From assembly GCF_000003815.2 (NCBI RefSeq), contig NC_049985.1, forward strand, positions 356,327 to 420,326: 64,000 nt of DNA, in the 5' to 3' direction. Source of the stretch: Branchiostoma floridae. Its lineage: Eukaryota > Chordata > Leptocardii > Amphioxiformes > Branchiostomatidae. A model generated the notes under the pieces. That model was given only the letters and a program-made list of their open reading frames with translations, made no database searches and was not told the origin of the DNA. The position numbers and the translations under genes were made by a program. This document shows, one piece after another, positions 6,305 to 61,866 of this stretch (its first letter is position 1; each line of letters opens with the position of its first letter).

Positions 6305-6475
6305 ATGCTTGAGGAAACATGGTTGCTGTTGGTTTCTGTCTACTACAGCGGCTATTGTAATTGCTGCTGTTGTTGTCACCAGGGGAATATAGAGCAGCCG
6401 TCCTCTCGCGCCATGGCCAATTGCTGTTGCTGTTGTTGTTATTGTTGTTATGTTTGTTATTGCTGTTGTTGTTAT
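6305..6475. repeat. 3'UTR duplication of last codons plus CAA-rich tract
   Basis: The last 14 codons of the speriolin-like gene and the following bases recur, diverged, at about 6370-6415, in transcript order after the real stop. Around them are AAC/ACA-rich triplet tracts (GTTGTT on the plus strand). On the minus strand the duplicated codons would read LAMARED-like sequence, but they lie after the stop. Confidence 0.75.
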
Positions 6476-6611
6476 CACCAGAGGAAAATGGAGCAGCCGT
6501 CCTCCCGCGCCATTGCCAGCAGACAGTCCAGCACCACCAGCATGTCGTACCGGAAGGGCTCGGGCACCAGACGGCCCACCGCCTCCCGGAGCAGCTCCGG
6601 GTCATGGTAAC
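6475..6611 (-). CDS. speriolin-like gene exon 4 with stop
   Basis: The CCCCAG acceptor joins in phase (G plus GT gives Gly) and the frame reads YHDPELLREAVGRLVPEP to EDGCSIFLW and TGA at 6475-6477. The terminal Trp fits the speriolin family. Partial copies of both exon ends lie on either side. Confidence 0.8.
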
Positions 6612-9600
6612 CTGGGGACAGAACACGGGTTACTATGGTAACCTGGGGGCAGAACACGGGTAACTATGGTAACCTGGGGGCAGAACACGGGTAACTATGG
6701 TAACGGGAACCAGACGGCCCACCGTCTCACGAAGCAGCTCTGGGTCATGGTAACCTGGGGACAGAACATTGGTAACTATGGTAACCTGGGGACAGAACAT
6801 TGGTAACTATGGTAACGGGCACCAGACGGCGGGTAACTATCATGGTAACCTGTGAGCAGAACACGGTTTACTATGGTAACCTGGGGACAGAACACTTGTA
6901 ACTATGGTAACGGGAACCAGACGCCCCACGGTCTCACGTAGTAGCTCCGGGTCATGGTAACCTAAGGACAAAGCACGGGTTACTTTTTTTTTTTTTACTC
7001 AATGGTCAGCACGTAACAAGACCTGAAGGCCACTCAAATTACTATGGTAACTTGGGGACAGAACACGGGTAACTATGGTAACGGGAAACAAACGGGCCAC
7101 CGTGTCACGGAGCAGCTCCGGGTCATGGTAACCTGGGGACAGAACACGGGTAACTATGGTAACCTGGGGGCAGAACACGGGTAACCATGGTAACCTGGGG
7201 ACAGAACACGGGTTACTATGGTGGCCTGGGGACAGAACACGGGTAGCTATGGCAACCTGGGGATAGAACACGGGTTTCTATGGTCACCTGGGGACAGAAC
7301 ACGGGTAACCATGGTACGTTAGGGACATAACACGGGTAACTATGGTAACCTGGGAGACATACGACAAACAGTTATGGTAGCTTAGCAACATTGGTAACAA
7401 CGGAACACAACAGCTGTAGTAACCTAGGAGACGGAATACAAGTAACTATGTTAACCTGGGCGACAGAACACGGGTACTTTGGTAACCTTGGAGATAGAAC
7501 GCATGGGGCCCTGGTAACCTTGTAGACAGAACACAACAGCTGTATCTTGTAACATTGGAGATGAAACACATGTTACTATGGCAACCTGGGGCCACTGTGG
7601 CCGCCGTTTGCTGATTCCTTAGATCACAGTCGCATCGAACCAATATATTGGTAATATGTTATTTGCAATGCGAACGGTGACCTATGTTATGCTTTCTGTC
7701 TTGCCCATTGAGCGCGTACCGTACACAGTCACGGCTATAAGTACCTTTCTGATGTACGAAGTTGTACTTGTCCCAGTCGGTGGGGAACTTGCCGAAGCGC
7801 AGCATGACGTCAGTCATGAAGAACGGGTGTCTCTGGAAGTCGAACCCGTACAGCCGCAAGGTGGCCGTGACGCGCCCCAGCTTCCGGGTCAGGAACTCTT
7901 TCTCATCCGGGTCACGCTCCAGACGCACCAGGTCGCCGATGGTGCGCAGGCTGAAGCTTTGGGCGGGAAAAGGAACGAGTGAATAAGTAAATGGGTGAAC
8001 GAATGAATGATGACGGCTACGTTACATTGGAAAGAAAGAATTTCGATTATAATGTATGTAACATGAAATCTAACCAATGTTGATAACATGGAGAACTTTT
8101 AAAGTGTGTTCCAACAAGAAAGATGCTGCATCGAATTTGTGACTGCCCGTGTGCAATCTTCATCAGGAGCGACTGACCAGTTCCTTAGGTCACGTGACCT
8201 TGCGGGGCCTCAGTGGATTACAGGTTACCAGTGTTGATTGATTTATCATGATGACCTAAAATGATTGATTGATTGTTTGTTACCTGGAAGGATCGATCTT
8301 TTGTCTCGGAAAGACGGACACCAACACGCGCTGTTCCAACTGGTGGCACACCTCCCCCAGTAGCCGGGCTTCTCTGACGTCATGGGTTTCGGACGTCCTT
8401 CGTGCTTTGCTATCCATCTTCTGTTCTCCCCCTGGAAAAGTTGCCCTCTCAGAAAAGCTCCCTCCAAGACCAGAGTCGTTGGGTTGAGCTGCCTCCTTTT
8501 TCTCAAACTGGACAGCAGTACCAGGGTGTTCCGCATGGGGGCGCGAGGTGTACAGTGCTGAAACGCCTTCCCCTAAGCCGGCAGCACCTTGTTGCTCCGC
8601 ATGGGGGCGTGGGATGTACAGTCTGGGTGCTGAAACGCCTTCATTTGAGCCGGGTGCGGGAAGAGCCAGCGTTCCTTGCCTTCTCACGTCGCGCCACAGA
8701 CACTGGTGGTCGCGAACCGTCGAGTCCAGGTCGATCAGAGTTCGCTCCAGGTGGTGCAGAACCCGCTTGATCTCGCGCACCGAGCTCTCCAACCAGACGG
8801 GGTCGGGGCCTGATGCGTCCTGGGCCCGACGACGTGTCAACGAGTCTCTCGATAACCGTACCGAGATGTCTTCCAAGACGGGATCGGGGAGTGTCTCCTT
8901 CCGTTCCCGACGGCGCGTGCCGGCTTCTCTCGCTGATCGGACCGAGCTCTCCAACGAGACGGCATCGGGGTCTGAAGCCTCCCGTGCCCGACGGTGTGTC
9001 TCTGCGTCTCTCGGTGATCGTTCCGAGCTCTCCTGCGAGACGGACTCGGGACCTGACGCCTCCCGCTCACGACGGCGCGTTGCTGCGTCCCGCGGTGGAC
9101 GGAGGGAGGCAAGTTCCTGCAGGCACCTGCTCAGTCTCCGTCCCGACACCACCGAGGCGCCGCCGCTGCCGTCCTCGGAAGAGAGCTGCGACAGCTCCGA
9201 GAGGGACTCGCACTCGTCCGCGGAGATAAGGCCCTGGTGCCAGGCGATCACAAGGCTGATGAGGGATATCTGTAATAGAAAACAGGCTTTCTCAGTCACT
9301 GCTGGAAGACAGTGACTAATACCTGAAAAATCTACCCACTTGCTTAAGCTTCATTCGAAATATAACGCTGATATCACCTTTATTCGCGGGTTATTCTATA
9401 TCCGGTGTTCTTCAAAACTGGGAATTTAGGGACGGACGGTGGTATGTTTTGAAAATGATTGCAATATTTTAAAAATTAAACCCCGTCCATTGATTTGATA
9501 TCTCTAAATACCCTGTGTTCAGAAACAACGGAAATAGGTTCCCCCAGCTTTTACTGAAATTTTCCCTGAAGCAGTGTATATGAAGTACCAACACAACTCA

Positions 9601-11443: not shown

Positions 11444-11703
11444 GGTTACAACACTTCCAGTGAAGCTTGGGTTACAACGCCTTTCGTGAACGGTGTGCTA
11501 CAACGCTTTCCGTGAAGTCGCGTCACACCACCCTCCGCGAAGCCTGTTACAACACTTTTCCTGAAGCCAGTAGTGTGCTGAAAGACTTTTCGTGAAATAT
11601 TTTACAACAATTTTCGTCAGGCCTGCTTTACAACACTCACCATGAAGGCTGTTTAACAACTTTTGTGAAGCCTGTGTAACAACAGCTTTCGTGAAGCGCT
11701 CAC
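11444..11703. repeat. degenerate ~34-bp tandem repeat upstream of speriolin-like ATG
   Basis: Units resemble ACAACGCTTTCGTGAAGCCTG on the plus strand. A CAG/GTGAGC donor on the minus strand at 11704/11703 could end a 5' UTR exon, which would put this array in a 5' UTR intron. No clear acceptor next to the ATG was identified. Confidence 0.55.
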
Positions 11704-21500: not shown

Positions 21501-24500
21501 GTGGAAAAAAATTCACCACTATGTCTATTAAATAAACAGCTGAAACTTGATGTCTGAGTACATTGACAGATCTAACAATGAAAATTAACATGGGGATTGA
21601 AGGACGAAAAAATTGAGACAGGAGACAACCTCTAATGACTTTTACCAACACAGATAAACTTTAAGTTAAGCCCCATACCTGGTCCGAAGGCCTGCACATG
21701 GTTGAAGGTACCGGGTGCCGGGCCTGTGATGATCGCGTCAGACATCGCCACTCTCTGTCCGCCCGCCGGCGACGACTGGTCTCTTCTGGGGTCCGCCAGT
21801 CCCATCTGGTACACGGGCAGGGCCTGGGTCGTGGGGTGGGTCAGCTGGGCCTGGGACAGGCTGGGTCGGCCCGACCCGCGCTGGGGCTGGGGTAAGGAGG
21901 TCAGCCCGGGCAGCTGGAAGCTGCTGAGGTCGGGGGCGATGCCGCCCATGGAAGCCAGACTGGAGGTGAACTTGGGGCTGCTTGTGCTGTAACCCGTGGG
22001 TTTCTGGTGGGACAGGGGCGACGTGGGTGTGTAGCCCGCGGGTTTCTGGTGGGAGAGGGGTGATGTGGGTGTGTAGCCCGCTGGTTTCTGGTGGGATAGT
22101 GGGGACGTGGGGTTGTAACCCTGTCCGTGGGGGCTCAGGTTGGGTGAGCTATGCGACAGTCCACTCTGTCGGGCCTGGTTGCCATGGGTTAGGCTGACCT
22201 GGTTGCCATGGGACTGGTTACCGTGGGATAGACTGCTCTGGTTGCCATGGGGTAGACTTGACTGGCTACCATGGGTTAGACTAGCCTGGTTACTGTGGGT
22301 TAGGATTGACTGGTTACCATGGGTTAGGCTGGACTGGTTGCCATGGGTTAGGCTAGACTGGTTACCGTGGGTGAGGCTAGACTGGCTACCATGGGTTAGA
22401 CTAGCCTGGTTACTGTGGGTTAGGCTAGACTGACTGCCATGGGTTAGGCTGACCTGTTTGCCATGGGTTAGGCTAGACTGGTTGACGTGGGCTAGGTTAG
22501 ACTGGTTACCGTGGGTCAGGCTGGACTGGTTGCCATGGGTTAGGCTCATGCCAGTCTTGGGGCTTCCTTGCGTTGTTCGCTCAAACGGTGAGGTCTGGCC
22601 CTGAGAGGGGAACGGCTGCCCTTTGCTGGAGAACATGGGTGCCTGAGCAGCAGTCTGGGGCTGGCCTTTGCTGGAGTAAAGGGGTGCCTGAGGCGAAGTC
22701 TGAGACTGCCCTTTGCTGGAGTACAAAGATGCCTGAGGAGAGGTTTGAGGCTGGCTTTTGCTGGAGAACAAGGGTGCCTGAGGAGATGTCTGTGGGGGTT
22801 GGCTTTTGCTAGAGAACATGGGTGCCTGAGACAAAGTCTGGGGCTGGCTTTTGCTAGAGTACATGGATGCCTGAGTAGAGGTCTGAAACTGTGGTTTGGT
22901 GTAGGACTGAGGTTTGGCTTTGGGCTGCGAGCTCTGGATCTGAGTCTGGAACTGGGCATACGGAGAGGTAGTGGTCGGCAGGTTCTGTGGGCCAGAGGCC
23001 GAGGGTTGTTGCCGTGCGGGCTGGGAGCTTGCCCCCTCACCCTGCTTGGGTAGAGAGAAGGCCTGCTGGATGGACTGTTCAAACAGTGCCTGGAACGACT
23101 TCCCAAACTGAGACCTGTAGAAAAAAAAAGAGATTTCAAAAAATCAATAAGCGACCAATTAAGGCCATCAACAGAGAAGGCACATGCTGGATCAAGAAGG
23201 CTGTCTGGATCAGTTAATGTACACGAATCATGAAGAGACAGACACTTTTTACCTTTGTTACGAAACAATCGGAAAGTCCCCTTCGCTCGTTGAAACACAG
23301 CGTAAAGGCCCTTATCACAAAGTAGGGGATTCAAATCACAGTGTAGGGGCCCCTTATGCTCAAAAGGCCAGACGAGAACACTAAAACTGTAAATGTGGTT
23401 TTGTGTTGAACTTCGCAGTTTTCGCAGTGAACTTAGAACCACCACGAACAATTTTCCATGGCAGTAAGAGACTACAGTGCATGGCGCTACTACAAACTTA
23501 AAACCGCTGCAAACAGTCCTTTTTCTTGCTACCTGCTTCTTGAACTTAAATTCCCGCAAAATTAAATGCGTTTACGGTATTAGATTAAAATCTGATTTTC
23601 GAAGTACCTGGTGTCCGATGGTGGTCTCTGCTGTTGCGGCTGTGACGATACACTGGGAGGACTCTTCATAGTTGGCCGAACAACGTCACTTGCGGGTTTC
23701 TTTGCGGCGATTTGCGGAGGGCTCGCTTTAACCACAGCCGTTAAGTCCTGTGCGGGCTGCGAGTGCGACCGCGCCTGTCTCACCACCGCGTCGATCGCGT
23801 TCCCGATGGAGTTATCCGTGGGCGAGTCTTTAAGGTGCGAGGAGGAAGAAGGGGGTGAGAACTCCTTGGGTTTCGTCTTGGATCCGTCCAGGTCTGCATA
23901 GTCCAGTAGGGTGGGGATGAAAGAGGCGATGGAGGACGTCAGGGCGGGGGCGTTGGGGAGAGACGTCGACGATGTGGCGATGTGCTGCTTTTCCGCGGTC
24001 ACGCACGACGCGAAGAGCGACATCGACTGGAGAGCGGACGGCGATGACGACGCTGGCGTCGACGTTGTCATGGCAACGGGTTTGGGGAACGTCTGGCTCG
24101 GCGGGGTGGAGTTGTTGGCGCCGACGATTCCGGAAGGGATCCCCCCTGGCGATGGTGCCTTGCGCTCCTGCTGTAAGGGGAGTGAACACAAACGTAAGCG
24201 CCACCTAGCGATTAACACGCATACTGCACAAGGTTCATGCGCTCTGCTGTAAGGGGAGTGAACACAAACACGTAAGCGCCACCTAGTGATTCATAGGAGT
24301 ACTGCACAAGGTTCATGCGCTCCTGCTGTAAGGGGAGTGAACACAAACGTAAGCGCCACCTAGCGATTCACAGGAGTACTGCACAAGGTTCATGCTGTAA
24401 GGGGAGTGAACACAAACGTAAGCGCCATCTAGCGATTCACAACAGTACTGCACAAGGTTCATGCGCTCCTGCTGTGAGGGGAGTGAACACAAACGTAAGC

Positions 24501-27500
24501 GCCACCTAGCGATTAACACGCATACTGCACAAGGTTCATGCGCTCCTGCTGTAAGGGGAGTGAACACAAATGTAAGCGCCACCTAGTGATTCACAGGAGT
24601 ACTGTACAAGGTTCATGCTCTCAAGCTGTATGGGGAGCAACGACAGGCATAAGCGCCATCTAGTGACTTACAGCAGTACTGCACAAGGTACATGCACCAA
24701 ACGAGGTCCAACCAGTGAGGTATACAATCTGCTCATTTTGCTTTAAAACATCTGAGAAATCGAACTATCTTTTCTGAAATATGGGTTAAATAAGACAGAG
24801 CCTGTGTTCTCATAGCTTTCCAAGTTGAAAGCTGTTCATAAATGTTTGCTGCAAACTTAAAAGTTGCCGGGGAAATTAAGTTTGTCGAGTTTGTACGGAA
24901 AACTCTGACTACATTGTATGCTCTGTGACTGGACCTCCAGCATGCAATCAAATAAGAATTTTTTTTTCAATTTCACAGAAGAGATACGGACTGATGCATC
25001 GCAACAACTACATGTTGGGCAACCTGCAGTGAACTGGAAGATAGGTCAAGAAAAATTCCGAATTCATAAAAAAAGTAAAACTTGCTGAAACTAAAATGTT
25101 AGCCATTTGGAGACCAACAGACCAGCACACTTCAGTTGGATGTGGGGATGTGTACATGTACCAAGTATTGTTTAGGTACAGGTCCAAAATACCAAAATAT
25201 CAAGATACCGTACAATGTACAATGTACACATCCCTATTGTAAAGCCTCTGAAAATGAAAGCATATCCAACACATTTTTTCCAAATTCCTAGAATCATGAC
25301 AAGGTAAGATCCTAACAGCAAGGGCTCACACCAACCCTTGAGACTGCAGGATCCCAGGGTTCCGTTTGGCCTACCTGCTGGCTCCACCCCCACACATGGG
25401 GTGGATGGTCCAGCCCAAACTGGAAAATACAATGGAAAACACCCACAGTGAGGGAGAACCCATTACGTTTCTGGGGGTGACGCTCTAAAATATGATTAAA
25501 AATACCCCACACAAAAACACAATCATTGCCTAAAAAAAAATTGGACTGCTGCAACCCTGGAAAAAATACATTCTCATGTACAATGTATAATGAATGGGAT
25601 ATTCTGACGGCACTTAAGTTCACATGTACGTATGACATGCGCCAAGCAAGTTTAAAAAATGTACTCCATAAAAATATATTTATTTCTTTTTTCTGTAGAG
25701 ACAAAGTGAATAGCACATACATGTAGATATCTGTCAAGTATAGCCGGACAAGTGAATGCTCCGACGTACATATTTCAAGACTTTTAATTAATTTCATTCA
25801 GACTTAAGCTAAGAAAACATTAGCTAAACACAAACCTTGACAATTGCTGCTTTCTTTGGCGCAGGATTCACTTGTACTGTGGAGAAATGATCAAGACGTT
25901 TTGTAGATGAAATAAAATAAGACAGTAAAAATTTTCTGTGTGAACAACAGTTGCACAAATGACGGATGAAAACAGTGGATAAATAAAGAATAGTTCAACT
26001 TACTCTTTTTCTGCTTTGGCCTGAAAGATACAGAGAAAACAGAATTTTATTATGATACTGATAGGTCAGAGATATTTAAGGAAGAAAATCAAGATGGCAA
26101 TAGTAGTCTACATGTGGCCAGATATTGGATAACAGTTTGATTAAAAGTTCCAGATGGAAATTTTGCAGTTTTGGCTATCCTACTAAAGGGTTACTGGTGT
26201 CCAAGATGTTGGTTAGCAAGTCCGCTTTCATTTTCATGAATTCAAAAACTGACAAATGAAATTGGTGTGGCATAAACTGAAGACCAACTCACGGCTGTGC
26301 AGTTATACAGTTGTGGATACATCTACTCTCCTTAAACAGCATCCTGCAATACAGTAGAAGACATAATTCACACTGTGAAACATACAATTTACAATCATAT
26401 TGGCTACACAGATACAGATACTGAAGCTGGTGTTATGCCTAAGGACAGTTACATCGGCTGTACTGATATAGATATATGTATACAGATCAGGGTTGTAGCC
26501 AGCCAGAAATCATTTTCTGTCCCCTCGATTTTGAATGGCTTTGGCGCAGCGTTCCTAGGGGGTCCGGGGGCATGCTCCCAAGGAAAATTTTGAAATCTAG
26601 ACCCTCTGAAACGCTATTTTCTGCATTTTGAGGGTTAAATTTTGCTCAAAGAGGACAGAATGGGCAAATTTTTTTTCCGTCCCCAGCTGCAAAATTCCGT
26701 TAAAGGACGGAAGGACGGGTGCTGGCTACAACCCTGATACAGATGATGGTGTTTTCCACCGAAGGGTGGTTAACATGCTCGCTAAACATATACTGTCAAT
26801 TGAGGGATATAAAAGGAAAAGTTGCACTATCTAACCCCCCACCTGGCCTGCATCCAGCCCTTGGGCCAGCAGTTCTTGACCTCCTGCTCCAGGTAAGTCT
26901 TAAGGTACTCCTCGGCAGACTGGGAGCGAGACTTGTCGTAGTGCTGCACCTTGATCCGCACTACCTCGTACAGAAGTTTCCTGCGATCAAAACATTGGAA
27001 CAACAAAGCTGTTTCCTACATCTTAGTATCATTTGAGATTGGATCGGAGTTTCTCCTAGGAAAAATCCTGATCGCCATCTGTACTAGTAGAAACGGCGAT
27101 TGTACTAGTACAGATTGCGATCGAGATTTCTCCTAGGAGAAACTCCGATCGTGACCTCTCCTAGGAGAATTGGCGATTCTACTGGATCGTGATCTCTACT
27201 GTGACATATACATTGTATATAGCAGGCCTTTTCCTTGTTCTCTACAAGAACTGGGACAGAGACTTGTCGTAGTGCTGCACCTTAATCCGCACTACCTCGT
27301 ACAGCAGTTTCCTGGGATCAAAACATTGGAAAAACAAAGCTTTTTGAAACGTTATTCCCAGTGTACCTTGATCCGCACTACTTCGTACAGAAGTTTCCTG
27401 GGACAGGGACGTAGGAAAGGTTTTGAGCAACAACTTTCTCTCTGTAAAATTGCTTTTGCAAATTTGTTCCTTGTTTCACAGCATTTTAGTTACATTCACT

Positions 27501-30500
27501 ATTCCAAGATTTTGACTGCAATCTATAACCACGTACAGCAGTTTCCTGCAGGGACCAGGGTGTAGAAAAGGGTTTGACGAACAAGTTTCTCTCTGTAAAA
27601 TTGCTTTTGTCACTTGATTCACAGCATATTAGTTTTTTTTCACTATTCCAAGATCTTGTCTGTAAAGTAAAATCACGTGGGAATAGGAAATGTGACTGTA
27701 GCATTGAAGTCTTGTTTTCCATCAGCTACACAGACAGGACATACATTATGCCCCCATTTTACCCTCTGAACCTTTCCTCATCGTTTAACACTGGTGACTA
27801 CCTGTGTGTAGGTTTTGTCTGTCAAAACGTATACAAGAAGAGAAAGTAACAACTCGATAAGCTGTGAACTGACCAGATGTCAGAGCTCCACTCAAACTAA
27901 TGAACTTGAAACCAGAAATTTTAGATTCGAAAACCCCAACCAAAAGACTATTTGTGTTGGTGTTTTTTTTTTTGGTTTCTCCTGTCGATTGGACAGATGA
28001 GGAGGCAGACAGGCTATTTGCCTGTTTGCCTGACCTGCACATGACTTTTTATGGTGAAGGAGGGGTGTGCAATTCTTTCTCCACCCTCTCGTCTACTGGA
28101 GCACTAAGTTTCACAGGGGCAACTGTATGCAACGTGTGAGGCGGCTCCAGCAGATGCAGCTTTGTTGTTCGGAGTATCCGTCTCCTAGGATGACTTCCAA
28201 CCAAGGATGTAGGGGGTTCCTCCTACCCCCGACTCGTGTGCCATGGCGGGTGCCGCTTATGCCCGAACATGCCCCTTAAAGGCCTGTCTCGGCCACATAG
28301 CCCCACCAAGCCTCAGATACTCATTTACACCTGAGTTAAGTGTCTGAGGAAAGTCGTGTAAAGTGAGACAGCCTTTCCCAAGGGCACAAGATCGGTGACA
28401 CAGCAGCTGGATTCGAACCCGCAACCTCTCGGTCTCGAGCCGAACATGCTGCCACTGTGCCACGCGGTCCCACCGTTAGCACAGTAAAACCAGCTAAACC
28501 ATCAATAACAGAGTCTGACCTGATCTCGTCTGTCCACTCAAACTTCCTCCGGGGCATGCTGGACCGTTTGATCTTGATGTTGTCCAGACTGTTCTTGGTT
28601 CCTTCTTCATCCTCATCTGAGGTGGACCCTGCTGGGTTCTCCTGTTCCCCGTCCTTGTGCAGGCTCTGTTGACTCTCCTGTATCCTAGAGACAGACAAAC
28701 AAACAAACAAATAAACAACCAAACAACAAGCACCAAAGGTTGATTTTTGCATCTGTAAGCTAGAGAGTCTGAGGTGGACCCTGGGTTCTCCTGTTCCCCG
28801 TCTTTGTGCAGGCTCTGTTGACTCTCCTGTATCCTAGAGACAGACAAACAAACAAACAAATAAACAACCAAACAACAAGCACCAAAGGTTGATTTTTGCA
28901 TCTGTAAGCTAGAGAGTCTGAGGTGGACCCTGGGTTCTCCTGTTCCCCGTCCTTGTGCAGGCTCTGCTGGCTCTCCTGTATCCTAGAGACAGACAAACAA
29001 ACAAACAAATAAACAACCAAACAGTAAGCACCAAAGTTTGATTTTTGCATCTGTAAGTTAGAGAGTCTGAGGTGGACCCTGGGTTCTCCTGTTCCCCGTC
29101 CTTGTGCAGGCTCTGTTGACTCTCCTGTATCCTAGAGACAAACAAACAAACAAACAAACAAATAAACAACCAAAACAACCAAACAGCAAGCACCAAAGGT
29201 TGATTTTTGCATCTGTAAGTTAGAGAGTCTGAGGTGGACCCTGCTGGGTTCTCCTGTTCCCCATCCTTGTGCAGGCTATGTTGGCTCTCTTGCATCCTGG
29301 AAACAAACAAACAAACAAACAAACAAACAGTAAGCACCGCTAGTTAACTCCTGTAACTGTAAGCTAGAGAGTCAGACATGGACCCTGGTTTCTCCTGCTC
29401 CCGTCCTGGCCATGGGAACCTGTTGTTATCAAATACAGTACATGAACGTAACTCTTTTAATTCAGATAACTTAAAACAGTAGTCAGAGTTACACAATATA
29501 AATATGAATGGTTTAGGTGTGACTGGTCATTCTGTATGTAACATAGCTAGCTGCAACCAGTTGTAATGAAGTCTTGTCGTTAGCTTGTCTTGTTACAGAA
29601 AATGCTGTGACAGTCTTAGATCCTTAGCTACTAACAGTTGCAAACTGCTAGAAAATCCTACGAGTATGGTACAAAACTGATGACCTCTGACGAGTACAAT
29701 AAGAATAGTATACAAATGTGGGAAACTGACTGTTCTATCTTGTGTAAGAAGACTAAGATAAGAGACTGACTGTTCAATCTTTTGTAAGAAGACTAAGATA
29801 AGAGACTGACTATTCTATCTTGTGTAAGAAGACTAAGATAAGAGACATACTGTTCTATCTTGGCCTGTGTGGCGATCTTGCACTCCTCCTGGTGGCGCCG
29901 GATCTGTTCTGGCATCACCTTTCCGATCGCCTCCCGTAACCGGAACAGCGGCTCGCGCAGCTGGCTGTCCTGGGGACGTAGGAAGTCGAGAGAAGATTCA
30001 GATTTCTCGCATAAAAAACGCTTTCCAATCAGATGATTTCTTCTCGAGATATTCTTCCTTGTTTGCATTCGTGGCCTAACCGCTAGCCTTAACTGTAGGG
30101 TGATTCCGTCATGTTGCGTGGAAACACTAGTACGTCTAGTAGAGCAGGAAATGAGTTGGAAAGGTGAAAGTTACACTTAGTAGTTCATTTTTTCAAATGT
30201 CCTTTTTTTCTGGACTTTTTGAGACATCTCTAACTTAAGATTGTCCTCTTAATTTTGCATCATGTCTTTGCAGTGTCTTTTTTAAGGAGGACTTGCCATT
30301 TGTCTAGCTTTAGAAATATAGAAATATAAAATGCTGTGAGTGTGAATACAAATGCTCATACATGTACATTAAAACAATAGAGAACTGGTTACTTACAAGT
30401 TCACTATGTCTGAGTTTCTTGGCCCTCTTGAGGAGCGTGTCCTTTGTGCAGGGGAGGTGGGCAGCCAGATGGGCAAACACTCCCTGTCAATACAACATCA

Positions 30501-33900: not shown

Positions 33901-36900
33901 TCTATAACGTTTAAAGAGTGTCGTCTTCACCACTTTACAGAGACGTTATGAGAAACAACCACAACATGGAACGCTCTGGGTAGTCTCACATGTTCACATG
34001 TTGTTTGTAAGAACCTAGTTGTTCTAAGAACTAAGGATAGTAAGGGTAGCAAGAAGAATTTAAGTGGTCCTTTAAAAAGAAATACTTTAAAGTGTGAAAC
34101 ACCACACATAGTACTAACAGTATTCCCATAGTGATCTGTGTTCATAATGTATGAAGATACAAATTGTGGCAAAACCCACTCTGCTTGTAACTCAGAACTA
34201 AGATTAAGTCCAAGATCCGACAAAATTTGAGTGTGACAAAAGTTGTCTTAATTTAAGACTCCAAACCTATGACAGACAGCCAATACCAAACACGGATCTT
34301 GGGGACTTAGATCTGATAAGTTCAAGGAATTAATCTTTTGTCCCTTTAACTTTAGTTTAAGCAATTCTTGACTCCAGTATCTGGTATTATGTGTGAAGGT
34401 TCACAGTTCGGTAACGAAAAGAGGAAATAACATCAGAATCATTGTTTTTGCTTGTCATATCTAAACCCATTGTGAACTTGTGAGACCATCCTGTAGAAAG
34501 TGTGTACCACGGACACCAGACGATGGGTCACGGGATGGGGAACCTCACCATGTTTCACTCACCAAGACATATTGCCTAGCAACTAGCCACAGATTGTAAC
34601 TAGCAATACATAATTTGTAGCAAGTAACACCTAACATAGTAACAACTAGCAACACCTAGCTAGTAATGCCTAGCAAACAGTGACTAGCAAAGCCTAATAA
34701 CTAGCCATACATAGCAACTAGAAACACCAAACTAGCCACAACAAGCTATGATTAACATCCTATCACTATTGAATAACTAACCATAGCTTAGCAGCTAGCA
34801 TTGCATAGCAACATTTAGCACAAACTATCCTTAATGTGGAAGATGGAAAAAAATGGGAGAAATATTCTGCATGTCCTCACCTCTTTCAGCTTGACGATGG
34901 TAGTCTGCAGGTCAGAGGGCAGCCCGGTGGGAAGGTTGGGGGGTTTCTCGGGGTTGATGCCGTCTCCCGCGCCCTGGCTAACATCGGTGAGACCGGACAG
35001 GATGCTGCTGGTCAGGAGGGAGGAGCCAGCGTCGCCACCTGCTGACAACGGGGAGAAGTGCATCCGCGAATGGTTTCATCAGGTTGGTACATCACTGAAT
35101 GAAGAGACTCTTTTTAGACAACCAATGCTTTATTCTCACCGACGTTTCTGTCACCTCCTTCAGGGCAATTCTGATTGGTTGTGTAAAAAGCATTGATCGT
35201 GTAAAAAGAGTTTCTTTATTCAGAGGGTAGTGCAGGTGTCAGGCTTACTAGAGATGAACGCTTTACTACGTAGCATGTACAAGTATTGGTGCAATGGCGG
35301 AGTGGGTAGAGTGTTCGCCATGAAGTTGCATTCCACAGGTCGTGAGTTCGATCCCCGGCAGAGTCATACCAAAGACTCTAAAAATGGTACATGCTGCTTT
35401 CTCTGCTTAGGACTCAGCACTAAAACTAGTAAAAGGGAAGAGTATGGGAGTTAAACAGGTATGTTATATTTTATCTAACCCGTATACCTTCCTCATGACG
35501 TCAATGAAAGCAGCCTGCCGATTCTCACGAATAACTAAAGGCTCAAACGAACAAACACACCCTACCTAATGTCCCGAACCCAGCGGAAGCGAGCAGGTTT
35601 GATGGCGACATGTTGCTGTTGTGTATCGGGAGGCCTGCTGAGGGTGGGGAGGTGCTGTTGGAGGTAGTTCGGTACAAACAAACAAACAAACAAACAAACA
35701 CACCCTACCTAGTGTCCCGAAGCCGGCAGAAGCGAGCAGGTTTGATGGCGACATGTTGCTGTTGTGTATCGGGAGGCCTGCTGAGGGTGGGGAGGTGCTG
35801 TTGGAGGTAGTTAGGGGGTTCTGGCCGGGCTGGTGTAACTGTTGCTGTCTCTGTAGCAGCTCCGCCACAGTAGGGGTGCTCTTCTTACGGGGCTTGGTCG
35901 TGCTGCAGGTGAGGAAGATGAAAAATGGCAACAAATTTCCTTGCTTTGTTTTTTTTTTGTGCAAATTTGATCAGGCCACATGGACCACTTCTGGGCACTG
36001 AACTAACACACTTTCTGTAGCACTGACCACACAGCATCTCTCCATAAAAGAGAATGATGGAGTAACTTTTATTCAAAAACCATCAATCTTTTTCCAAATT
36101 ATGATTTTTCCAAAATTTAATTATGATATTTTAGATTATTTTTAATGTTCGTTTCAGCTTTCTTAGGCTATTCATTGTTTTATGTTTTGCCTACATACTT
36201 ATGGGTGGTAGAACAGTAAAATCTGCCTACAACCTACTTTTTTAAAATACATATGTACATGTATTAGTGTATTAGTAATTGTAATAAATCAAATCAATTA
36301 AATCGTTGCATCTTTGGGAATTCTAAAGTAAGGAATTAAGAAAGAGTCAGACTTTATTTCTCATTTCAAATTATGTTTTTTTAGACAAAAATAAACCATA
36401 TATTATTAAGATGCAGGGCTTGAAATACTTTTTTCTGCATACCTGCGCTGGTGCAGGTAACATTGAAGATTACCTGCACCGGACAAATTTTACCTGCACC
36501 ACTCTGAATTTAGGAAGAATACTAAAATTGTTTAGGAAACATTGCTATTTTTTGTTTCATACTTAATAGGTGGTAACAGTCGATGCAGCTAATAACAATC
36601 CACATACACCTACATCATTGGACATTTATGTATAAAACCCAGTACATGGACCAGTGCAGGTTAGGTGCAGGTAGACACCAGAAATACCAGCACAGCACCA
36701 ATTTTACCTGCACTAACCTGCATATGCAGGTGGCATTTCGAGCCCTGAGATGCAATCTTGAGTGTACATTGCCTTAAGGATACTCTGAACAATCCCTACC
36801 CGTCTCCTTTCTCCCGAGGTTTCCGTGGCTTCTTGGGTTTGTTGGGGTCCAGCGGGTCCTTTAATCTCTTCCGTTTTCTCACCCCGTCCTTCTCTACACC

Positions 36901-49812: not shown

Positions 49813-49845
<33 letters not shown>

Positions 49846-51861: not shown

Positions 51862-52812
51862 ATGGCGAGTTCCAGGGCTGCGAACAAGTTTCGCACAGCG
51901 TTTAACTACAAAGGGTACGAGGTAGCGCGATGGTTCCCCGGTCACATGGCCAAAGGCTTGGGCAAGATGCGGAGGCAGCTGAAGGGCGTTGACTGCGTCA
52001 TCGAAGTTCACGACGCCAGAATTCCGATCTCCGGTCGGACGCCTCGCTTCCAGGAAACGCTGTCCATACGACCTCACCTGCTGATGCTGAACAAGATTGA
52101 CCTCGCCGACCTTTCCAGGAAAAGGGAAATCGAGGAGAAGCTACGACAGCAGAATGTCGAACACCTGACCTTCGCGAGCTGCACCACCTTCAAGGACAAA
52201 GATGTGAAGCAGATCATGCCCAAGGTCATGGACATCTTGGCCTCTTCTCCGGAATTCTACAAGGGAGAGGACGATGACATCACTCTGATGGTGATCGGGA
52301 TCCCGAACGTTGGGAAATCATCGCTCATCAACGCCTTCCGGAGAATGTACCTGAAGAAGGGGAGAGCCACACCTGTGGGGAAGGACCCGGGGATCACGCG
52401 AAGCGTCCTTACAAAAATCCGCGTCTCGGACAGGCCGTCCGTCTTTCTACTCGACACTCCAGGCGTGCTCTCTCCGAACATTCCCGACGTAGAGACGGGC
52501 TTCAAGCTGGCGCTCGTCGGTGCCATCAAGGATCACCTGGTCGGGGAAGACTTCTTGGCGGACTACTTGCTCTTCCGGCTGAACCGCCAGGAGAACTTTC
52601 GCTACGTGGAGCACTACAAGATGCAGGAGCCGTGCGACCACGTCTTGAAGATGCTGGGACACATCGCCGTGCAGATGGGGAAGTCTCGCAAGATCAAGAT
52701 GGACTCTGGCACGGGCTCCATGATCATTCACCAGCCCAACTTCCAGGCCGCAGCACTGCAGTTCCTTAGGGACTTCCGGCAGGGGGCGCTAGGGCCTGCC
52801 ATGCTGGACTAA
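51862..52812 (+). CDS. MTG1: MTG1, mitochondrial ribosome-associated GTPase
   Basis: A 316-residue circularly permuted GTPase of the YlqF/MTG1 family, which acts in late assembly of the large mitochondrial ribosomal subunit at the inner membrane. G4 (NKID, 77-80) comes before G1 (GIPNVGKS, 146-153), G2 (PGITR, about 176-180) and G3 (DTPG, 198-201), the permuted order. VARWFPGHMAKGL and VIEVHDARIPISGR match the vertebrate protein. It is uninterrupted by introns, suggesting either ancestral lack or retrocopy origin; no poly-A tract is seen. AAGATGGCG at the start fits a YY1-type start-site motif. Vertebrate MTG1 is slightly longer at the C-terminus. Confidence 0.95.
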   Translation: MASSRAANKFRTAFNYKGYEVARWFPGHMAKGLGKMRRQLKGVDCVIEVHDARIPISGRTPRFQETLSIRPHLLMLNKIDLADLSRKREIEEKLRQQNVEHLTFASCTTFKDKDVKQIMPKVMDILASSPEFYKGEDDDITLMVIGIPNVGKSSLINAFRRMYLKKGRATPVGKDPGITRSVLTKIRVSDRPSVFLLDTPGVLSPNIPDVETGFKLALVGAIKDHLVGEDFLADYLLFRLNRQENFRYVEHYKMQEPCDHVLKMLGHIAVQMGKSRKIKMDSGTGSMIIHQPNFQAAALQFLRDFRQGALGPAMLD

Positions 52813-52890
52813 ATAGACAGGGGGCGCTAGGGCCTGCAATGCTGGACTAAATAGACAGGGGGCGCTAAGGGGCGCTAGGGGCCTGCAAGG
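52780..52890 (+). repeat. 38-bp tandem repeat across MTG1 stop codon
   Basis: Units start at 52780, 52818 and 52856 (CAGGGGGCGCTAGGGCCTGC). The first contains the final codons and TAA; the second repeats them after the stop; the third is partial. Confidence 0.92.
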
Positions 52891-52912
52891 TTTGATTGAA
52901 CTAGCAGTAGGA

Positions 52913-54881: not shown

Positions 54882-54889
54882 ATGTGCTT

Positions 54890-55558
54890 GCACCTAAGAT
54901 GTCAAAATGATGCTGGCATTATTGATCAACACATTTTTATCAACATTGAGACTGCATGATTATGATCATAGTGAGTCTACTGTTAAGCTATATAAACTGT
55001 CCCTAACATTCATAATAAAAGTCCATTTGTTAGGGTATGAACTGTTTTTACTTAATACTAGTCTAGTACTTTTCAAAAAGGGCTGGGAGAATTTCCCCAT
55101 ACATATCTTTTGTCTTTCCTTTGTGAGCTGATCAGGTGTCACACAACCATACAGACAATATTTGTTTGTCATATACTTAATTGTACACTGGATAAGTATT
55201 ACTCAAGCAACTGGAAAATAAATTTGGGAACAGTCAAATGTTTTAGACAGCACCCGCTGTCTTTTGTTAGTCGCTGGACACAGTAAGTGTAACAATCTAT
55301 CCCCAGAACTGTCAAAATTAGGTTGCTTATCGAATACTTAATGCAAGATACCAGTTCCATCTCTGGTCCTGCTCCGAACACAGAGCAACACAACATCAGT
55401 CCGTCTTAACACTTCTGGAATAAATCAGTATAAAGGCATCTTCTTGCATCCATCTCCAGCTCTCCACAAGAGTTAGACCATCACAAGTACCAGCTAATGT
55501 TCATACAGTAATGTTAATCATGTGGCAACAAAGTTCAGCTATTTATCAATATCTTGAC
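54890..55558. other. gene-free stretch, nothing recognised
   Basis: AT-rich sequence between the hAT-like copy and the repeated MED7 3' end. No supported gene. Confidence 0.5.
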
Positions 55559-55745
55559 TTGATGTTGTCCACTATGCTGCACTTGAGTCTGTTTTTCCTG
55601 TAGTTCAGCTTTTTGTCAAGATTTGAAGTTGTCCACTATGTTGTTCATAATGATTTGATGTTGTCCACTATGCTGTGTTCATCATGACTTGATGTTGTCC
55701 ACTATGCTGTTTATCATGACTTGATGTTGTCCACTATGCTGCACA
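55559..55745. repeat. tandem copies of MED7 last codons and stop
   Basis: TTGATGTTGTCCACTATGCTG or close variants occurs near 55560, 55624, 55654, 55688 and 55719. The last is the real C-terminus (SIVDNIKS, stop); the other four lie in the 3' UTR. Confidence 0.9.
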
Positions 55746-55924
55746 TGAGTCTGTCTTTCCCGTAGTCCTCGTCGCGTTTGCTCTGCGAGATTCCCGCCCG
55801 TCGGTTCAGCTCCTCCAGGTTCGGCTTGACGTCCTCGCTGTCAGAAGCGCCCCCTATGTCCTCGGGCATGGACTGCACGCACTGCTTCAGCATGTCGATG
55901 ACTCGGTCCAGGTGCTGCTGGAAC
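55714..55924 (-). CDS. MED7: MED7 exon 4 with stop
   Basis: Acceptor [28 protein letters not shown] to [10 protein letters not shown] and TGA at 55714-55716. Confidence 0.92.
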
Positions 55925-58900
55925 CTGAAAAAGAAAAGAATCATTGTGTCATGCTGTAGACTGCAGTTATTATCAAATCTGCTAGGTGGCACTACTGTGT
56001 GGTCAGAATGCAGGTGGTGGTGCAGGGATTGTTGCTTCATTTGCAATTTTGCCTTCTTTCTGTACTTGCTGCCATAAACCAGGTGAAACCAATACAAACT
56101 TGGTGCCAAAAGACAACCTTAGCTGACAGACAGTCAAGGACCGATTTTAAGCTACTCTGTACTGTCTATTCAGTGATATATGCTCATCATCTTGCATATT
56201 GACGGCAAACCCCACCCCCACAAAAAATCAGAACAGCTAGTAACAAAAAAATGGACTTGAGAAGAGAAGGACCAGATGACTGGTGAAAATATTGTTGGTA
56301 AGCTCTGTACTTCAGGTGCGGAAAGACAATTTTTTAAACATATCTTGTGTTAATTTCTTGATATACTTTCTTAAAACTTTAATTTTTTGTTTCCACAAAA
56401 GGTTTTTAAATGTGACCCTAGCGCTTCTTACTCTCACCTGTCTGCGGTCTCCAGCCTTTGTCGTTTCTGCACCTGGTGTGTTACACCATGAAGTGGTTTA
56501 TCGGATATGCAGCTTGTACAGTCAAACCTGCCAGAGCGACCACCTCTTCTCAGCGACCACCTGGCCATTTCGACCGCTTTTTCTCGGTCCCGATTTATTT
56601 TCCCATTGACGTAAGCATTAAGCGACCTTTTCTCAACGACCACCTGGCCAACGCGACCGCGACCGGCCCATATTGGGACCCATAACGACCGCATCATTTT
56701 CAAAATTGAGGTTTTCATCGATTTTTTATGATAAATAGCGCGATTTTGTGCCGAAATCGGCCAGTTTGCGTCAGATTTTGGGGTTAAATTTACAGTTTAC
56801 AGTGTGCGTGTTGTATTTGACATTAAAGACCTCACTTCTTTGCGTGCGTGCAGTGTGCTTGCTATTTGCCATTAAACACAGCGGAAACCATTTATACTTT
56901 GCATCGGGCATGTTTTGAGTCGATACTCTTCTCAGAGACCACCTGTCCAAATCGACCGTTTTTTCCCGGTCCCCCGGGTGGTCGCCTTGGGCAGGTTTGA
57001 CTGTAGTTGTACTGTTCAGTACAAACCTGGTGTGTTACTGTTACATCATGAGGCTAGTTCACCTGAACGTATATACAGTACAAATGACACCTGTCCTCAC
57101 CTGTCTGCGGTCTCGAGCCTCTGTCGTTTCTGCACCTGGTGGTTTATCGGATATACAGCTTGTACTCTTCATTACTGTGTTACTGTTACATCATGAGGCT
57201 AGTTCACCTGAACGTATACACAGTACAAACGACACCTGTCCTCACCTGTCTGCGGTCTCCAGCCTCTGTCGTTTCTGCACCTCCATCATGACGCGCAGAG
57301 TCTCCCGCGCCTGGTGCGGCCGGTACTCGTTAATCAGGTGGTGCATGTGGATGAACAGCAGGTTCAGGTCGTCAATCTTCTCCTCCCTGTTGTCATGGTA
57401 ACACAACAAAAAACATGTTTGACAAAATCACCATGAGGTGGTATATCGGATATGCAGCTTGTACTGTTCAGTACATGTGCATGTGGATAAACAGCAGGTT
57501 CCATCTTCTCCGCAACAAAAATATACATGAAAAATGTTTGACAAAAATGCCCCTGCAATGCCACTACTAGAGGCTAGGGGTACTCGTTAATCAGGTGGTG
57601 TATGTGGATGAACAGCAGGTTCAGGTCATCAATCTTCTCTTCCCTTTTATGTGAAAAAACAACAAAAAATACATGTAAATGAGAACAAAAACTTTACAAC
57701 TACGCCTGGTATCCAAACCTATTAAAATTACCAAGTCTCTTCAAAGATCCTCTCGGATTTGTGGTAAAAGGGAAAGGCAAAGATAATGATAGGTAAAGGT
57801 AGTCCCATAGCCTTTTTGAGGTTGTAGGGGCCGTGGGTTGTTATCCACTGTGTGTAGGGCACAGCATTGGGAGGAGGAGCCCAACCCTTTCCTTTCACCC
57901 AGGCTTTTAGCTAGGATTTTATAATAGGGAGTCCAAAGTTATTGGTGAGTCACGGTAAGTGACTATTGCCACCTTCCATGGTTTTTGATGATTTTAAGTT
58001 TAAAAAGTGCATTCTTAGGTTTCCCAAGAGGCAAAAATACTGTTCCAGAGGTCATAGTAGAAGACTGTGACCACAGATGACCTGTTAGCATCCCTGGTCA
58101 ATCAGAATTTCATGCTTGTCTGACGATTTTCTCTGTAGTGAAAGGGCGTCCAGGGGCATCAAATTTCTTGTTATTCTAAGAAAAGTGCGTCCAGATGACG
58201 CGTTGACGCATGCCTGGCTAAAAGCCTGCTTTCACCGCCCCATTAGAAGTCAGGTACATGTTTTTGCTAAGGGTTTGACATTGGTGACTTGATAAGGGAT
58301 TGGAGCTCTTCCCAGCTCTTCTGGGTTCTAATCCCTTAAAGGGACATAATGTAAAATTAAAGTCACTGTTTTCGGTCATTTCTCTACATAATGAGTTGAG
58401 TTTACCTTATTACACTGCACAGCAATATTTACAACGTATGGATACGACTTTGTTGAGCCGTGAGAATGTCTTGAAATATGCGCACTTCCCTCCGCCGCTT
58501 GAGTTGTCCGCCATTTTATTCAACTCGCCGGCGAGCCAAAGTGCGCTTTAGAACGCGTTCGGTGGTTCGCTCGAATCATTACTGAAGTTTGTTGAAAGTC
58601 CCGCTACGCTCCGAAGATCTGCGACAGCAACGGTCGATTCGGAAATCTACGGTCGGCTTACTTCCGGTAGGCTACCCGGAAGTAAGTGAATTTGGTCCCG
58701 GCTTACTTTGACGTTGTTAATTAGCACTAGAAATGTGATAAAATGACACAGATAAGTTAGAAATAAGTTGCAAATGTCAATCTGAATGGAGATTTTCAAG
58801 TTCAGAACATTTGAAATTTTGGCGCCATATTTCTACATTATGTCCCTTTAACAAATCACCAATGTTAAAGCTTCAGCTTCTCTGGGTTCTGGTACAAACA

Positions 58901-61016
58901 CCCTAGTGATCGCAATAAAAAATTTTCCCAGCAACTGTATTGAATTTGGAAAAGGTCAAGACAGTTTTGGTTTGTTCGATCCCAAGAAGAAAATTTCCAT
59001 CTCAGAGCGAGGGTCCTGGAGACAGATACAGAAAACAGTGGTAAGTGTAAGTGTAAGTTAGATTAACTGTCCAGCTTACCTGCATGGGGTGTTGGGAGAC
59101 TTGATGAGAATGTCATCAGGCTTACCTGCGAGGAGTGTTGGGGGACTTGATGAGAATGTCATCAGGCTTACCTGCGAGGAGTGTTGGGAGACTTGATGAG
59201 AATGTCATCAGGCTTACCTGTGTGGGGTGTTGGGGGACTTGATGAGAATGTCATCAGGCTTACCTGCGTGGGGTGTTGGGGGACTTGATGAGGATGTCAT
59301 CAGGCTTACCTGCGAGGAGTGTTGGGGGACTTGATGAGAATGTCATCAGGCTTACCTGCGAGGAGTGTTGGGGGACTTGATGAGAATGTCATCAGGCTTA
59401 CCTGCGAGGAGTGTTTGGAGACTTGATGAGGATGTCATCAGGCTTACCTGCGAGGGGTGTTGGGGGACTTGATGAGAATGTCATCAGGCTTACCTGCGAG
59501 GGGTGTTGGGAGACTTGATGAGGATGTCATCAGGCTTACCTGCGAGGAGTGTTGGGGGACTTGATGAGAATGTCATCAGGCTTACCTGCGAGGGGTGTTG
59601 GGAGACTTGATGAGGATGTCATCAGGCTTACCTGCGAGGAGTGTTGGGGGACTTGATGAGGATGTCCAGCAGGTCCAGGAAGTTGACCAGGATTGAGTGG
59701 TTCAGCTTCTTCAGCTCCAGCTTGTGGTCAAACTTGTCTGGATGGAGGCGACGGATTCCCTGCACAACACACAAAGGCAAGGTTAAAGTTAATTTTGAGC
59801 TGTACTTATTGCACAGAGTCAAATTCTGTACGTTTGAGGAATTACAAACCAAAATGTTGTTTTTTCTCATCAGTCATATTTTGAGTGTGGTGGGTTCTTT
59901 AATGTGCTTGAGGTGTGGCATTCTGCAGCAAGGTACTTATTTACACCTGAGTGAAGTGGGGAAAGTCATGAAGAGTGCCTTTCCCAAGGGCACAAGGGCG
60001 GCGGCATATCTACGGATTTAAACCCCAACCTCTGGGTTACGGTCCCAAAACCCTGCCATTAAGCCCCACTTGATTTCTTTATTTATCCTTGGTAATCCTA
60101 TACAGTTATCAATATCTATACAGCCTATGCTCTTGAGTGCAAACCTGGTGTATATATATAGTATGCCTTAAGGCAACAAGCAAATAAAGAGTAGAGTAGA
60201 GTAGATTCTTCGGTTAGGTAGGAGACTCGCTCCAGTTTAAACCGCTCCTCTTTCTCATCGGTCAGCATACCGTCATTATTGGTTTGTGTGGTTTGTCCAA
60301 GGCTTTATAGTTGAACATGATGGGATGGTCTTCCATGGCCCTATCTAGCCTTGATTTAAAACTGTTGACCGTTGGTGCTGTCACCACTTCTTCTGGCAGT
60401 GCGTTCCACCACGGCACTACTCTGTTGCTGAAAAAGTCATGTCTCTTGTTGGTTTTTGATATTGGCCTTGTTAAGCGTTGGCTGTGACCTCTTATTCTCC
60501 CTTCCCTCTTAACTTCCGGTGTACATGGCTCCGTGTCGTATAGCCCGTGTGTGTATTTGTATGTGATCACCTCTCAGTCTCCTGTAAAGAAGGGTGGGGA
60601 GTTTCAGGGTTCTAAGCCTTTGTTCGTATGAGAGCTCGCTCAAGCCTGGGATTCTTTTTGTTGCACGTCTTTGTATGTTTTCTATGATGTCTACTGACTT
60701 CCAGCTCCCAGGGGACCATATGGGGGCACCATACTCGATGAGAGGACACACTAGGGATTTGAAAAGGATGGTGAAGACCTCAAAAACAAACAAACAAAGC
60801 GAGATCTTTTCTGCCACTGACCTGAGACTCCAGCGGCCGGATGATCTGGTCGTCCACCTGGTAGTCGCTGCCAAACATGGAGTACTGGTCTGTGATTGGT
60901 GGAGGCGGAGGGGGCGCCAGGCCGCGGGAAACATTCTCCGTCGTGTACTGGCTGACAAACTGCATGGGGGGGAGGGGCATGGCACTCACCCCTGCCTCGC
61001 CCTCACCTTCCGCCAT
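55714..61016 (-). CDS. MED7: MED7, Mediator complex subunit 7, 4 exons
   Basis: Exons are 60822-61016, 59632-59759, 57246-57386 and 55714-55924. Splice sites are GT/AG, phases agree, and the product is 224 residues, against 233 in human. Matches include [80 protein letters not shown] and [15 protein letters not shown]7 forms a hinge with MED21 in the Mediator middle module and links activators to RNA polymerase II in the nucleus. Every coding exon has a nearby tandem duplication of one of its edges. Only the last 20 or so residues differ much from vertebrates. Confidence 0.95.
56519..57003. mobile_element. pogo/Tigger-like MITE inserted in exon 3 duplicate
   Basis: Ends CAGTCAAACCTGCC and GGCAGGTTTGACTG, flanked by TA (56517-56518 and 57004-57005). 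Internal AGCGACCACCT-like subrepeats. 485 bp, non-coding. Confidence 0.85.
57246..57386 (-). CDS. MED7: MED7 exon 3
   Basis: Acceptor [28 protein letters not shown] to KRQRLETAD plus a split Arg; donor ACAG/GTGAGG. Confidence 0.95.
57900..58228. mobile_element. hAT-like element nested in another repeat, 8-bp duplication
   Basis: Ends CAGGCTTTTAGC and CTGGCTAAAAGCCTG (inverted), flanked by CTTTCACC at 57892-57899 and 58229-58236. The host repeat (CAGCATTGGGAGGAGGAGCC...) resumes after it as GCCCCATTAGAAG. Confidence 0.88.
58340..58847. mobile_element. TTAA-flanked MITE (Kolobok- or piggyBac-like)
   Basis: Inverted ends AGGGACATAATGTA and TACATTATGTCCCT, flanked by TTAA (58336-58339 and 58848-58851). 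508 bp. The host sequence around it pairs as an outer inverted repeat (GACATTGGTGACTTG with CAAATCACCAATGT). Confidence 0.85.
59075..59672. repeat. 46-bp array spanning MED7 exon 2 donor, 13 copies
   Basis: Units begin CTTACCTGC at 59075 and then every 46 bp exactly to 59627, the functional one. Each unit holds 36-40 bases of the end of exon 2, the donor and five intron bases. Confidence 0.97.
59632..59759 (-). CDS. MED7: MED7 exon 2
   Basis: Acceptor [28 protein letters not shown] to LIKSPNTPR; donor CGCAG/GTAAGC. Its last 36 bases and donor are the first of 13 tandem units. Confidence 0.95.
59900..60070 (-). mobile_element. tRNA-derived SINE, degenerate copy
   Basis: Same tail as 28310-28471 (CCTTGGGAAAGGC, CACTTCACTCAGGTGTAAAT on the minus strand); the B box has decayed to GGTTTAAATCC. 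Confidence 0.7.
60192..60785 (-). mobile_element. 5'-truncated CR1/L2-like LINE, reverse transcriptase C-terminal part
   Basis: Minus-strand frames give [40 protein letters not shown], then after a frameshift near 60566 [10 protein letters not shown] and [18 protein letters not shown] to a stop at 60262. These are typical of the C-terminal end of LINE reverse transcriptases. It ends in a TCTAC repeat (60192-60207), a common LINE 3' tail. Dead copy. Confidence 0.85.
60822..61016 (-). CDS. MED7: MED7 exon 1 (start)
   Basis: 65 codons from ATG 61014-61016 to CAG/GTCAGT. ACTACAG directly before AAGATGG looks like an acceptor (exon from 61019), implying an upstream 5' UTR exon. Confidence 0.92.
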
Positions 61017-61019
61017 CTT

Positions 61020-61866
61020 CTGTAGTACGAAACATTAAAGACGTAAGTAAGTGTACTGGACACTAAAGACGTATAACTAAGTAAGTGTACTGGCTCACGA
61101 ACTGCATGGGGGGCAGGGGCATGGCACTCACCCCCGCCTCACCCTCACCTTCTGCCATCTTCTGTAGTTTTTTAAGAAACATAAAAGACGTAAGTAAGTG
61201 TACTGGACACTAAAGACGTAAGTAAGTGTACTGGCTAAGAAACTGAATCGGGGGGGAAGTGGCATGGCACTCACCCCAGCCTCACCATCACCTTCCGCCA
61301 TCTTCTGTAGTTCTTTAAGAAACATTAAAGACGTAAGTAAGTGTACTGGACACTAAAGACGTAAGTAAGTGTACTGGACACTAAAGACGTAAGTAAGTGT
61401 ACTGGACACTAAAGACGTAAGTAAGTGTACTGGACACTAAAGACGTAAGTAAGTGTACTGGACACTAAAGACGTAAGTAAGTGTACTGGACACTAAAGAC
61501 GTAAGTAAGTGTACTGGACACTAAAGACGTAAGTAAGTGTACTGGACACTAAAGACGTAAGTAAGTGTACTGGACACTAAAGACGTAAGTAAGTGTACTG
61601 GACACTAAAGACGTAAGTAAGTGTACTGGACACTAAAGACGTAAGTAAGTGTACTGGACACTAAAGACGTAAGTAAGTGTACTGGACACTAAAGACGTAA
61701 GTAAGTGTACTGGACACTGAAGACGTAAGTAAGTGTACTGGACACTAAAGACGTAAGTAAGTGTACTGGACACTAAAGACGTAAGTAAGTGTACTGGCTA
61801 AGGAACTGAATCGGGGGAGGGGCATGGCGCTCACCCCCGCCTCACCCTCACCTTCTGCCATCTTCT
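61020..61866. repeat. 28-bp satellite with three extra copies of MED7 start exon
   Basis: About 17 head-to-tail 28-bp units (GTAAGTAAGTGTACTGGACA) fill 61324-61797, with shorter runs before. Extra copies of the first 17-25 MED7 codons, each with ATG and usually a CTACAG or similar acceptor just before it, lie at about 61084-61160, 61222-61305 and 61795-61862. Confidence 0.93.

Follow-up and report, generated by a model that had tools for sequence, protein, structure and literature searches.

In a 64-kb stretch of the Branchiostoma floridae genome (positions 356,327-420,326; referred to as the window, the genome comprising 513 Mb in 431 contigs), exon edges have repeatedly been duplicated in tandem in four genes, namely a speriolin-like gene, ubinuclein (UBN), MTG1 and MED7. 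The arrays add new members to the amphioxus mirages, an already known class of minisatellite-like tandem duplications over exon-intron boundaries. The bias of such arrays towards edges recurs elsewhere in the genome, as supported in a small sample with small numbers. In addition, the spare copies are under a constraint that is specific to codon position and well supported in the sequences examined.

The identity of the genes is supported by matches to the Speriolin_C, UBN_AB and Med7 models and, for MTG1, to PDB chains that bear the name mitochondrial ribosome-associated GTPase 1. Spliced models that use the exon-proximal copies alone match their families with 171.6 bits for Med7 (profile positions 1-188 of 189), 123.6 bits for UBN_AB (positions 82-207 of 211) and 49 bits for Speriolin_C. 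Judging from these models, the predicted working copy is the first one at donors and the last one at acceptors, all remaining copies falling into the intron or the 3' untranslated region, and reading MED7 beyond the first donor leads to an in-frame TAA. Reading frames, splice signals and domain matches served to place the 44 edges of the window manually, several of those in UBN being predictions only.

Tandem Repeats Finder (TRF) gave 69 rows in the window, from which those with a period of at least 20, a score of at least 80 and non-simple units were kept; after merging, 24 minisatellite-like arrays with a total of 6.4 kb remained. Nine of them contain an edge or a stop codon, seven lying over splice sites and two including a stop codon only. 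Self-alignment added four edge duplications missed by TRF, three at splice edges (the UBN acceptor at 26980 as well as acceptor and donor of MED7 exon C) and one at a stop codon. The preliminary description had counted about a dozen edge arrays in these four genes and regarded their unit sequences as unrelated to each other, and both statements are borne out. The preliminary description had also held that no array is explained by a transposon; fifteen array units searched in 358 kb of sequence had matches at no other locus, which bears on that statement for these 358 kb only. The units of the edge arrays in the window measure 31-149 bp, and none of the seven TRF splice-edge periods (31, 77, 149, 40, 143, 46 and 143 bp) is a multiple of three.

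MED7, on the minus strand, has five of its eight edges duplicated when TRF and self-alignment are taken together. In detail, a 46-bp unit present 12.9 times lies over a donor (59074..59666; TRF, alignment), units of about 143 bp lie over an acceptor plus the start codon, together with a sub-array of 17 copies of 28 bp in the intron (60943..61897; TRF, alignment), and 3.8 copies of a 32-bp unit lie over the stop codon (55616..55741; TRF, codon check). For exon C, self-match and alignment revealed copies of the exon end and donor at 56433..57282 and a copy of the intron end, acceptor and exon start at 57322..57669. The start codon of MED7, situated 3 bases behind the acceptor within the same unit, is the only one found in a repeated unit. 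The 28-bp array of the 5' intron (61322-61797) reads as a donor-like GTAAGTAAGTG on the plus strand, antisense to MED7, and an open frame at 60262-60985, in the intron after the first coding exon, is a possible retroelement remnant, presumably resembling the end of a non-LTR (long terminal repeat) reverse transcriptase.

UBN, also on the minus strand, contains three acceptor and two donor cases: seven copies of 77 bp over an acceptor (24161..24695, exon start at 24170; TRF), interspersed copies of exon start and acceptor belonging to the exon 26843-26980 (26919..27418; self-match only), five copies of about 149 bp over the acceptor at 28684 (28616..29407; TRF, alignment), 3.5 copies of 40 bp over a donor (29725..29862; TRF) and two copies of 143 bp over another donor (35544..35815; TRF, alignment). 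The last exon of the speriolin-like gene (minus strand) has a 31-bp array over its splice acceptor (6604..6704; TRF, sequence and Speriolin_C match) with additional decayed copies of this unit and the exon start at 6745-7536, and its stop codon lies in a 65-bp duplication (6355..6518; self-match, codon check). MTG1, on the plus strand, carries 2.3 copies of a 38-bp unit over the stop codon (52780..52867; TRF, codon check). The motif AGRKGGCRSY, which we take to be a CTCF-like core, matches seven times in the repeated units at 24161-24695 and three times in those at 52780-52867, as compared to ten times in 243 kb of other sequence. In the speriolin-like gene and UBN, five further arrays are confined to coding exons (8779-9080, 10611-11176, 21988-22886), where they encode repeats of probably disordered protein. 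Outside these genes, TRIM/NHL-like frames occur on the minus strand at 2367-4795 in several overlapping pieces, with RING and B-box matches at 3827-4795 and a 29-bp repeat of two copies at 3408-3465.

Tandem duplication begins from one unit, and the question is therefore whether that unit held an edge. When each array was collapsed to one unit, 9 of the 24 arrays contained an edge as compared to 0.78 expected, a number reached in none of 20,000 permutations; within gene spans, and with exon-internal arrays excluded, the count was 9/15 against 1.67 expected (P 5e-6). The UBN acceptor array at 28684 joined the nine only after its exon start had been moved from 28616 to 28684. Self-match families in the window gave a similar picture, 12 of 22 containing an edge (1.61 expected). 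Random placement of whole arrays in the window yielded eight observed against 3.2 expected (P 0.009), a null that in our view is not strict enough, since copies inserted by duplication do not cover new edges. The density of arrays in the window (24 per 64 kb) is about three times that of 20 other 10-kb stretches (25 per 200 kb).

As the window had been picked for showing the pattern, sequence outside it was sampled. The first sample consisted of nine intron-bearing chaperonin-family genes (L031-L039), for which 50 of 60 matches were used, the ten excluded being copies with long frames and apparently no introns, exons lying far out and a second copy on C19; the exons of these genes were obtained by comparing a small codon and splice-signal finder with the matches, a few edges being placed by hand. 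The second sample comprised the 20 10-kb stretches (L011-L030), which start at round coordinates, come from seven contigs and in some cases contain long runs of N; their exons were predicted ab initio. At the unit level, three of six arrays in the chaperonin genes (0.71 expected, P 0.021) and three of 25 in the other stretches (0.42 expected, P 0.008) contained an edge, and for both samples together, in gene spans and with non-exonic arrays only, the count was 6/11 against 1.55 (P 0.0013). The tie to exon edges that had been proposed from the window therefore exceeds chance under the unit-level null both inside and outside it. Self-match families agreed (5/10 against 1.79, P 0.016, and 5/45 against 1.08, P 0.004, respectively), and over six settings of the period and score thresholds, whether all edges or just the splice sites were counted, P for the independent sequence ranged from 0.001 to 0.022.

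The independent cases are a 68-bp acceptor array of six copies, a 67-bp donor array of 14 copies and a marginal 78-bp acceptor array (L035) in genes that we take to be CCT6-, CCT2- and CCT7-like, an 86-bp acceptor array in a presumably GPR107-like gene without a Pfam match at 0.001, and two arrays in genes supported by Pfam, one of 56 bp over a donor of a CENP-O gene and one over the stop codon of a PTH2-domain gene. The CENP-O and PTH2-domain genes adjoin each other in L029, each with edge duplications (3155-3260, 8197-8492, 9185-9646).

The constraint was determined from 50 spare copies of 14 edge duplications (eight in the window, three in the chaperonin genes, three in the other stretches), each aligned with gaps to its working copy. 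Dropped from the codon counts were the UBN 77-bp, UBN 40-bp and L035 78-bp arrays, which contain only 6-12 exon bases per unit, and the self-match edges L036 7876 and L027 8614 were left out as well. Compared with the working copy, 15/265, 6/266 and 61/266 sites were variable at codon positions 1, 2 and 3, respectively, and 86/369 in the intron part; counted copy by copy, the differences were 26/856, 6/869 and 135/864, and 102/1061 in the intron. The third position exceeded the mean of the first two in all 14 duplications, with an odds ratio of 6.1 after stratification by base and CpG. Because a selected working copy alone gives some third-position excess, the variation among spare copies is the telling number. 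In the eight arrays with at least two spare copies, 6/143, 3/145 and 36/142 sites varied among them at positions 1 to 3 and 68/250 in the intron, which corresponds to an odds ratio of 10.5 for position 3 (P 9e-12; 8.8 when stratified by base and CpG), sites within one array not being independent. Among these changes 33 were synonymous, where 11.9 would be expected, and 13 nonsynonymous, giving a dN/dS-like value of 0.14.

The splice sites have been kept in a similar manner. In the 14 duplications none of 28 dinucleotide columns was variable and none of 100 bases was changed copy by copy, the UBN 143-bp donor array being placed 2-3 bases off in the dinucleotide and codon counts with its GT intact by eye. 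In an ungapped set of 17 duplications, 54 of 58 dinucleotides were intact, the misses being two L035 copies and two misplaced edges. Indels numbered five in 2589 bases of the exon parts, three of them multiples of three, and 13 in 1061 bases of the intron parts. In later analyses, which were not blind, four stop-codon duplications pooled gave 2:3:12 by codon position (P 0.002), and among nine globin exon-2 starts that were fetched, one (L048) contained an array with units of about 156 bp, which fits the published BflGb6 mirage and showed 4:1:8 variable sites of 32, 31 and 32 at positions 1 to 3 (P 0.03). Two earlier codon counts were superseded by the gapped alignments, as the speriolin frame was wrong in both: an initial one on 13 duplications (17:17:53) and an ungapped one on 17 duplications (22:21:61 against the working copy; 14:16:31 among copies, P 0.014).

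Copies that had arisen once and then drifted would vary about equally at the three positions, and therefore most of the divergence arose while the ancestors of the spare copies were working edges; if their differences were built up in this way, the spare copies would be no old relics, and it follows that the arrays turn over fast. The most likely account, in which our confidence is about evenly balanced, is that mirages grow on one side from the working edges of divergent alleles and that their distal copies decay. Growth would be polar, occurring at the exon end, where divergent alleles would supply units from their own working edges, and the distal copies would decay and then be lost. Exons may be the islands where alleles still match in this genome, whose polymorphism is about 4%, and the duplications would therefore start or end in an exon. 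Duplications lying inside exons would be purged and those extending into the intron would survive. According to this proposal, units with an exon end plus an intron end could be in excess because exons are the remaining homology islands between alleles. The allelic origin, the polarity and the homology-island cause are what we infer from these patterns.

Both exchange modes were simulated on a small scale and without fitting. Symmetric unequal exchange in long-lived arrays (population of 200) left the spare copies near neutral, with omega at 0.73-1.08 over five rates, and was rejected on that account. One-sided transfer of exon-proximal units from other alleles, combined with loss at the distal end and set to 0.1 per generation, resulted in omega values of 0.18-0.27 and about 2.6 of 12 variable silent sites, the unit mutation rate being 0.012 and this transfer rate, the highest of three tried, about eight times that; the distal half lay above the proximal half at each setting. 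The observed data, i.e. the value of 0.14, the 36/142 variable third positions and the proximal versus distal ranks, resemble this high-rate polar case.

Several results weigh against this account. The polar simulation matches at its top rate only, the two lower ones leading to omega values of 0.45-0.84. Nonsynonymous change rises only weakly towards the distal copies (36 synonymous and 5 nonsynonymous changes in proximal, 56 and 20 in distal copies; P 0.10). The third-position differences (135/864) look higher than an allelic divergence of 4%, the polymorphism quoted for B. floridae in PMC8994340, and alleles alone may therefore not suffice. Six arrays have a single spare copy, and their distribution over the codon positions (7:3:17), taken alone, is compatible with neutral spare copies, because synonymous changes of the working copy itself add to position 3; the stop-codon copies of MED7 are even across the positions (2:2:2). 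In the ungapped alignment the L035 78-bp array, outside the 14 duplications, lacks the AG in two of three spare copies. With only six exon bases in its unit this array is also the marginal one among the independent cases, which amount to six events only. Finally, the comparison with shuffled positions that had been called for came out clearly at the unit level in the window but not when whole arrays were placed within gene spans (8 against 5.5 expected, P 0.14) or when edges rather than arrays were counted (P 0.075-0.35), and 20 of 264 edges lay inside a local self-match, which is not above the 20 of 240 found 150 bp into the intron. The flat profile is probably due to mirage arrays reaching into the adjacent intron.

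These last results are what would be expected if ordinary minisatellites happened to lie on edges because the genome is dense in genes and rich in repeats, their spare copies being neutral and the edges tolerated, and with an array coverage of 6% in the 20 other stretches some overlap is certain. This explanation is already disfavoured, and we consider it improbable, since the unit-level null was exceeded in three samples and neutral copies are not expected to yield 6/143, 3/145 and 36/142. Where the preliminary description had left a choice between a mechanism and a tolerance tied to edges, plain tolerance of dead copies agrees poorly with the codon positions. Selection might also act indirectly, nonsynonymous variants in long-resident spare copies being removed as frequent exchange moves them into the working edge. 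The same codon-position signature would be expected from this process, the CCT2-like copies share variants reticulately as seen by eye, and both the high mutation rates possible at minisatellites and the large populations of amphioxus would favour it; symmetric exchange nevertheless failed to produce such low values among copies in the simulations, although with only 200 individuals, and we regard indirect selection as unlikely, if worth keeping in view.

An assembly in which two divergent haplotypes were joined in tandem would yield copies that differ just as alleles do. Moreover, two runs of N are present in the window, and the draft BflGb6 array was apparently misassembled according to PMC3087553. 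Several arrays have 3-14 copies of 46-149-bp units with more than two kinds of copies, the BflGb6 array was recovered again in this genome, and published mirages were verified by re-sequencing (PGBD5) and by traces (PMC3087553, PMC3902484), so that an artefact appears quite improbable. It is more doubtful still that the spare copies have a use of their own, being brought into translated mRNA through recursive or alternative splicing. Their codon-specific constraint and mostly intact splice sites would agree with such a use; however, a later MED7 donor runs into the in-frame TAA, one copy in the GPR107-like gene ends in a stop, none of the seven splice-edge periods in the window is divisible by three, the rest of the exon is absent from the copies, and reverse-transcription polymerase chain reaction on the globins was consistent with regular splicing (PMC3087553).

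In amphioxus, the term mirages was introduced at Adh3 for tandem repeats that span exon-intron boundaries, and such repeats are also known from the globins BflGb6 and BflGb9 (PMC3087553), which matches the Adh precedent that the preliminary description had mentioned; a PGBD5 mirage has been described and TnC mentioned (PMC3902484). According to both papers, mirages affect donors as well as acceptors, have units of 10-160 bp and leave the mRNA apparently normal, and the globin paper notes concerted evolution and calls the mechanism of their formation unclear. Those reports dealt with single genes or families, whereas here a sampled excess over chance was measured, stop codons were included as an extension of the term and a signature of purifying selection was found in spare copies. 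In the open-licence literature we found no report of codon-position constraint in mirages, of an edge-enrichment test or of a genome-wide account.

The Rogers model of intron gain by tandem duplication, proposed for the globins in PMC3087553, likewise involves duplication over splice signals; here, in contrast, the duplicates occupy one end of a pre-existing intron. No sequence common to both ends of MED7 intron 2, the one intron inspected, was seen by eye. Intron gain by this route has reportedly occurred in the potato RdRp case. Human minisatellites of the MS32 type undergo polar inter-allelic conversion, to which the proposed growth at one end with units of another allele would be similar; for the arrays described here this is an analogy, in which polarity and allelic source are proposed. 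In chicken, unused immunoglobulin V pseudogenes are kept in reading order and donate to the working gene. Donation there is a diversification system, and no such function is suggested for mirages.

More tentatively, and with less than even confidence, we propose that exon edges in this hyper-polymorphic genome could be recombination-active ends into which edge units of other alleles are continually inserted, so that mirages would be a visible, self-renewing record, in working order, of past working alleles of each exon edge and part of a species-wide process, not a peculiarity confined to a handful of genes. If spare edge copies bear the mark of selection, they would be tied to the working edge through recombination. 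Mirages may then lend themselves to the study of how strongly divergent alleles recombine, of the choice of splice sites among identical ones and of the raw material for new introns.

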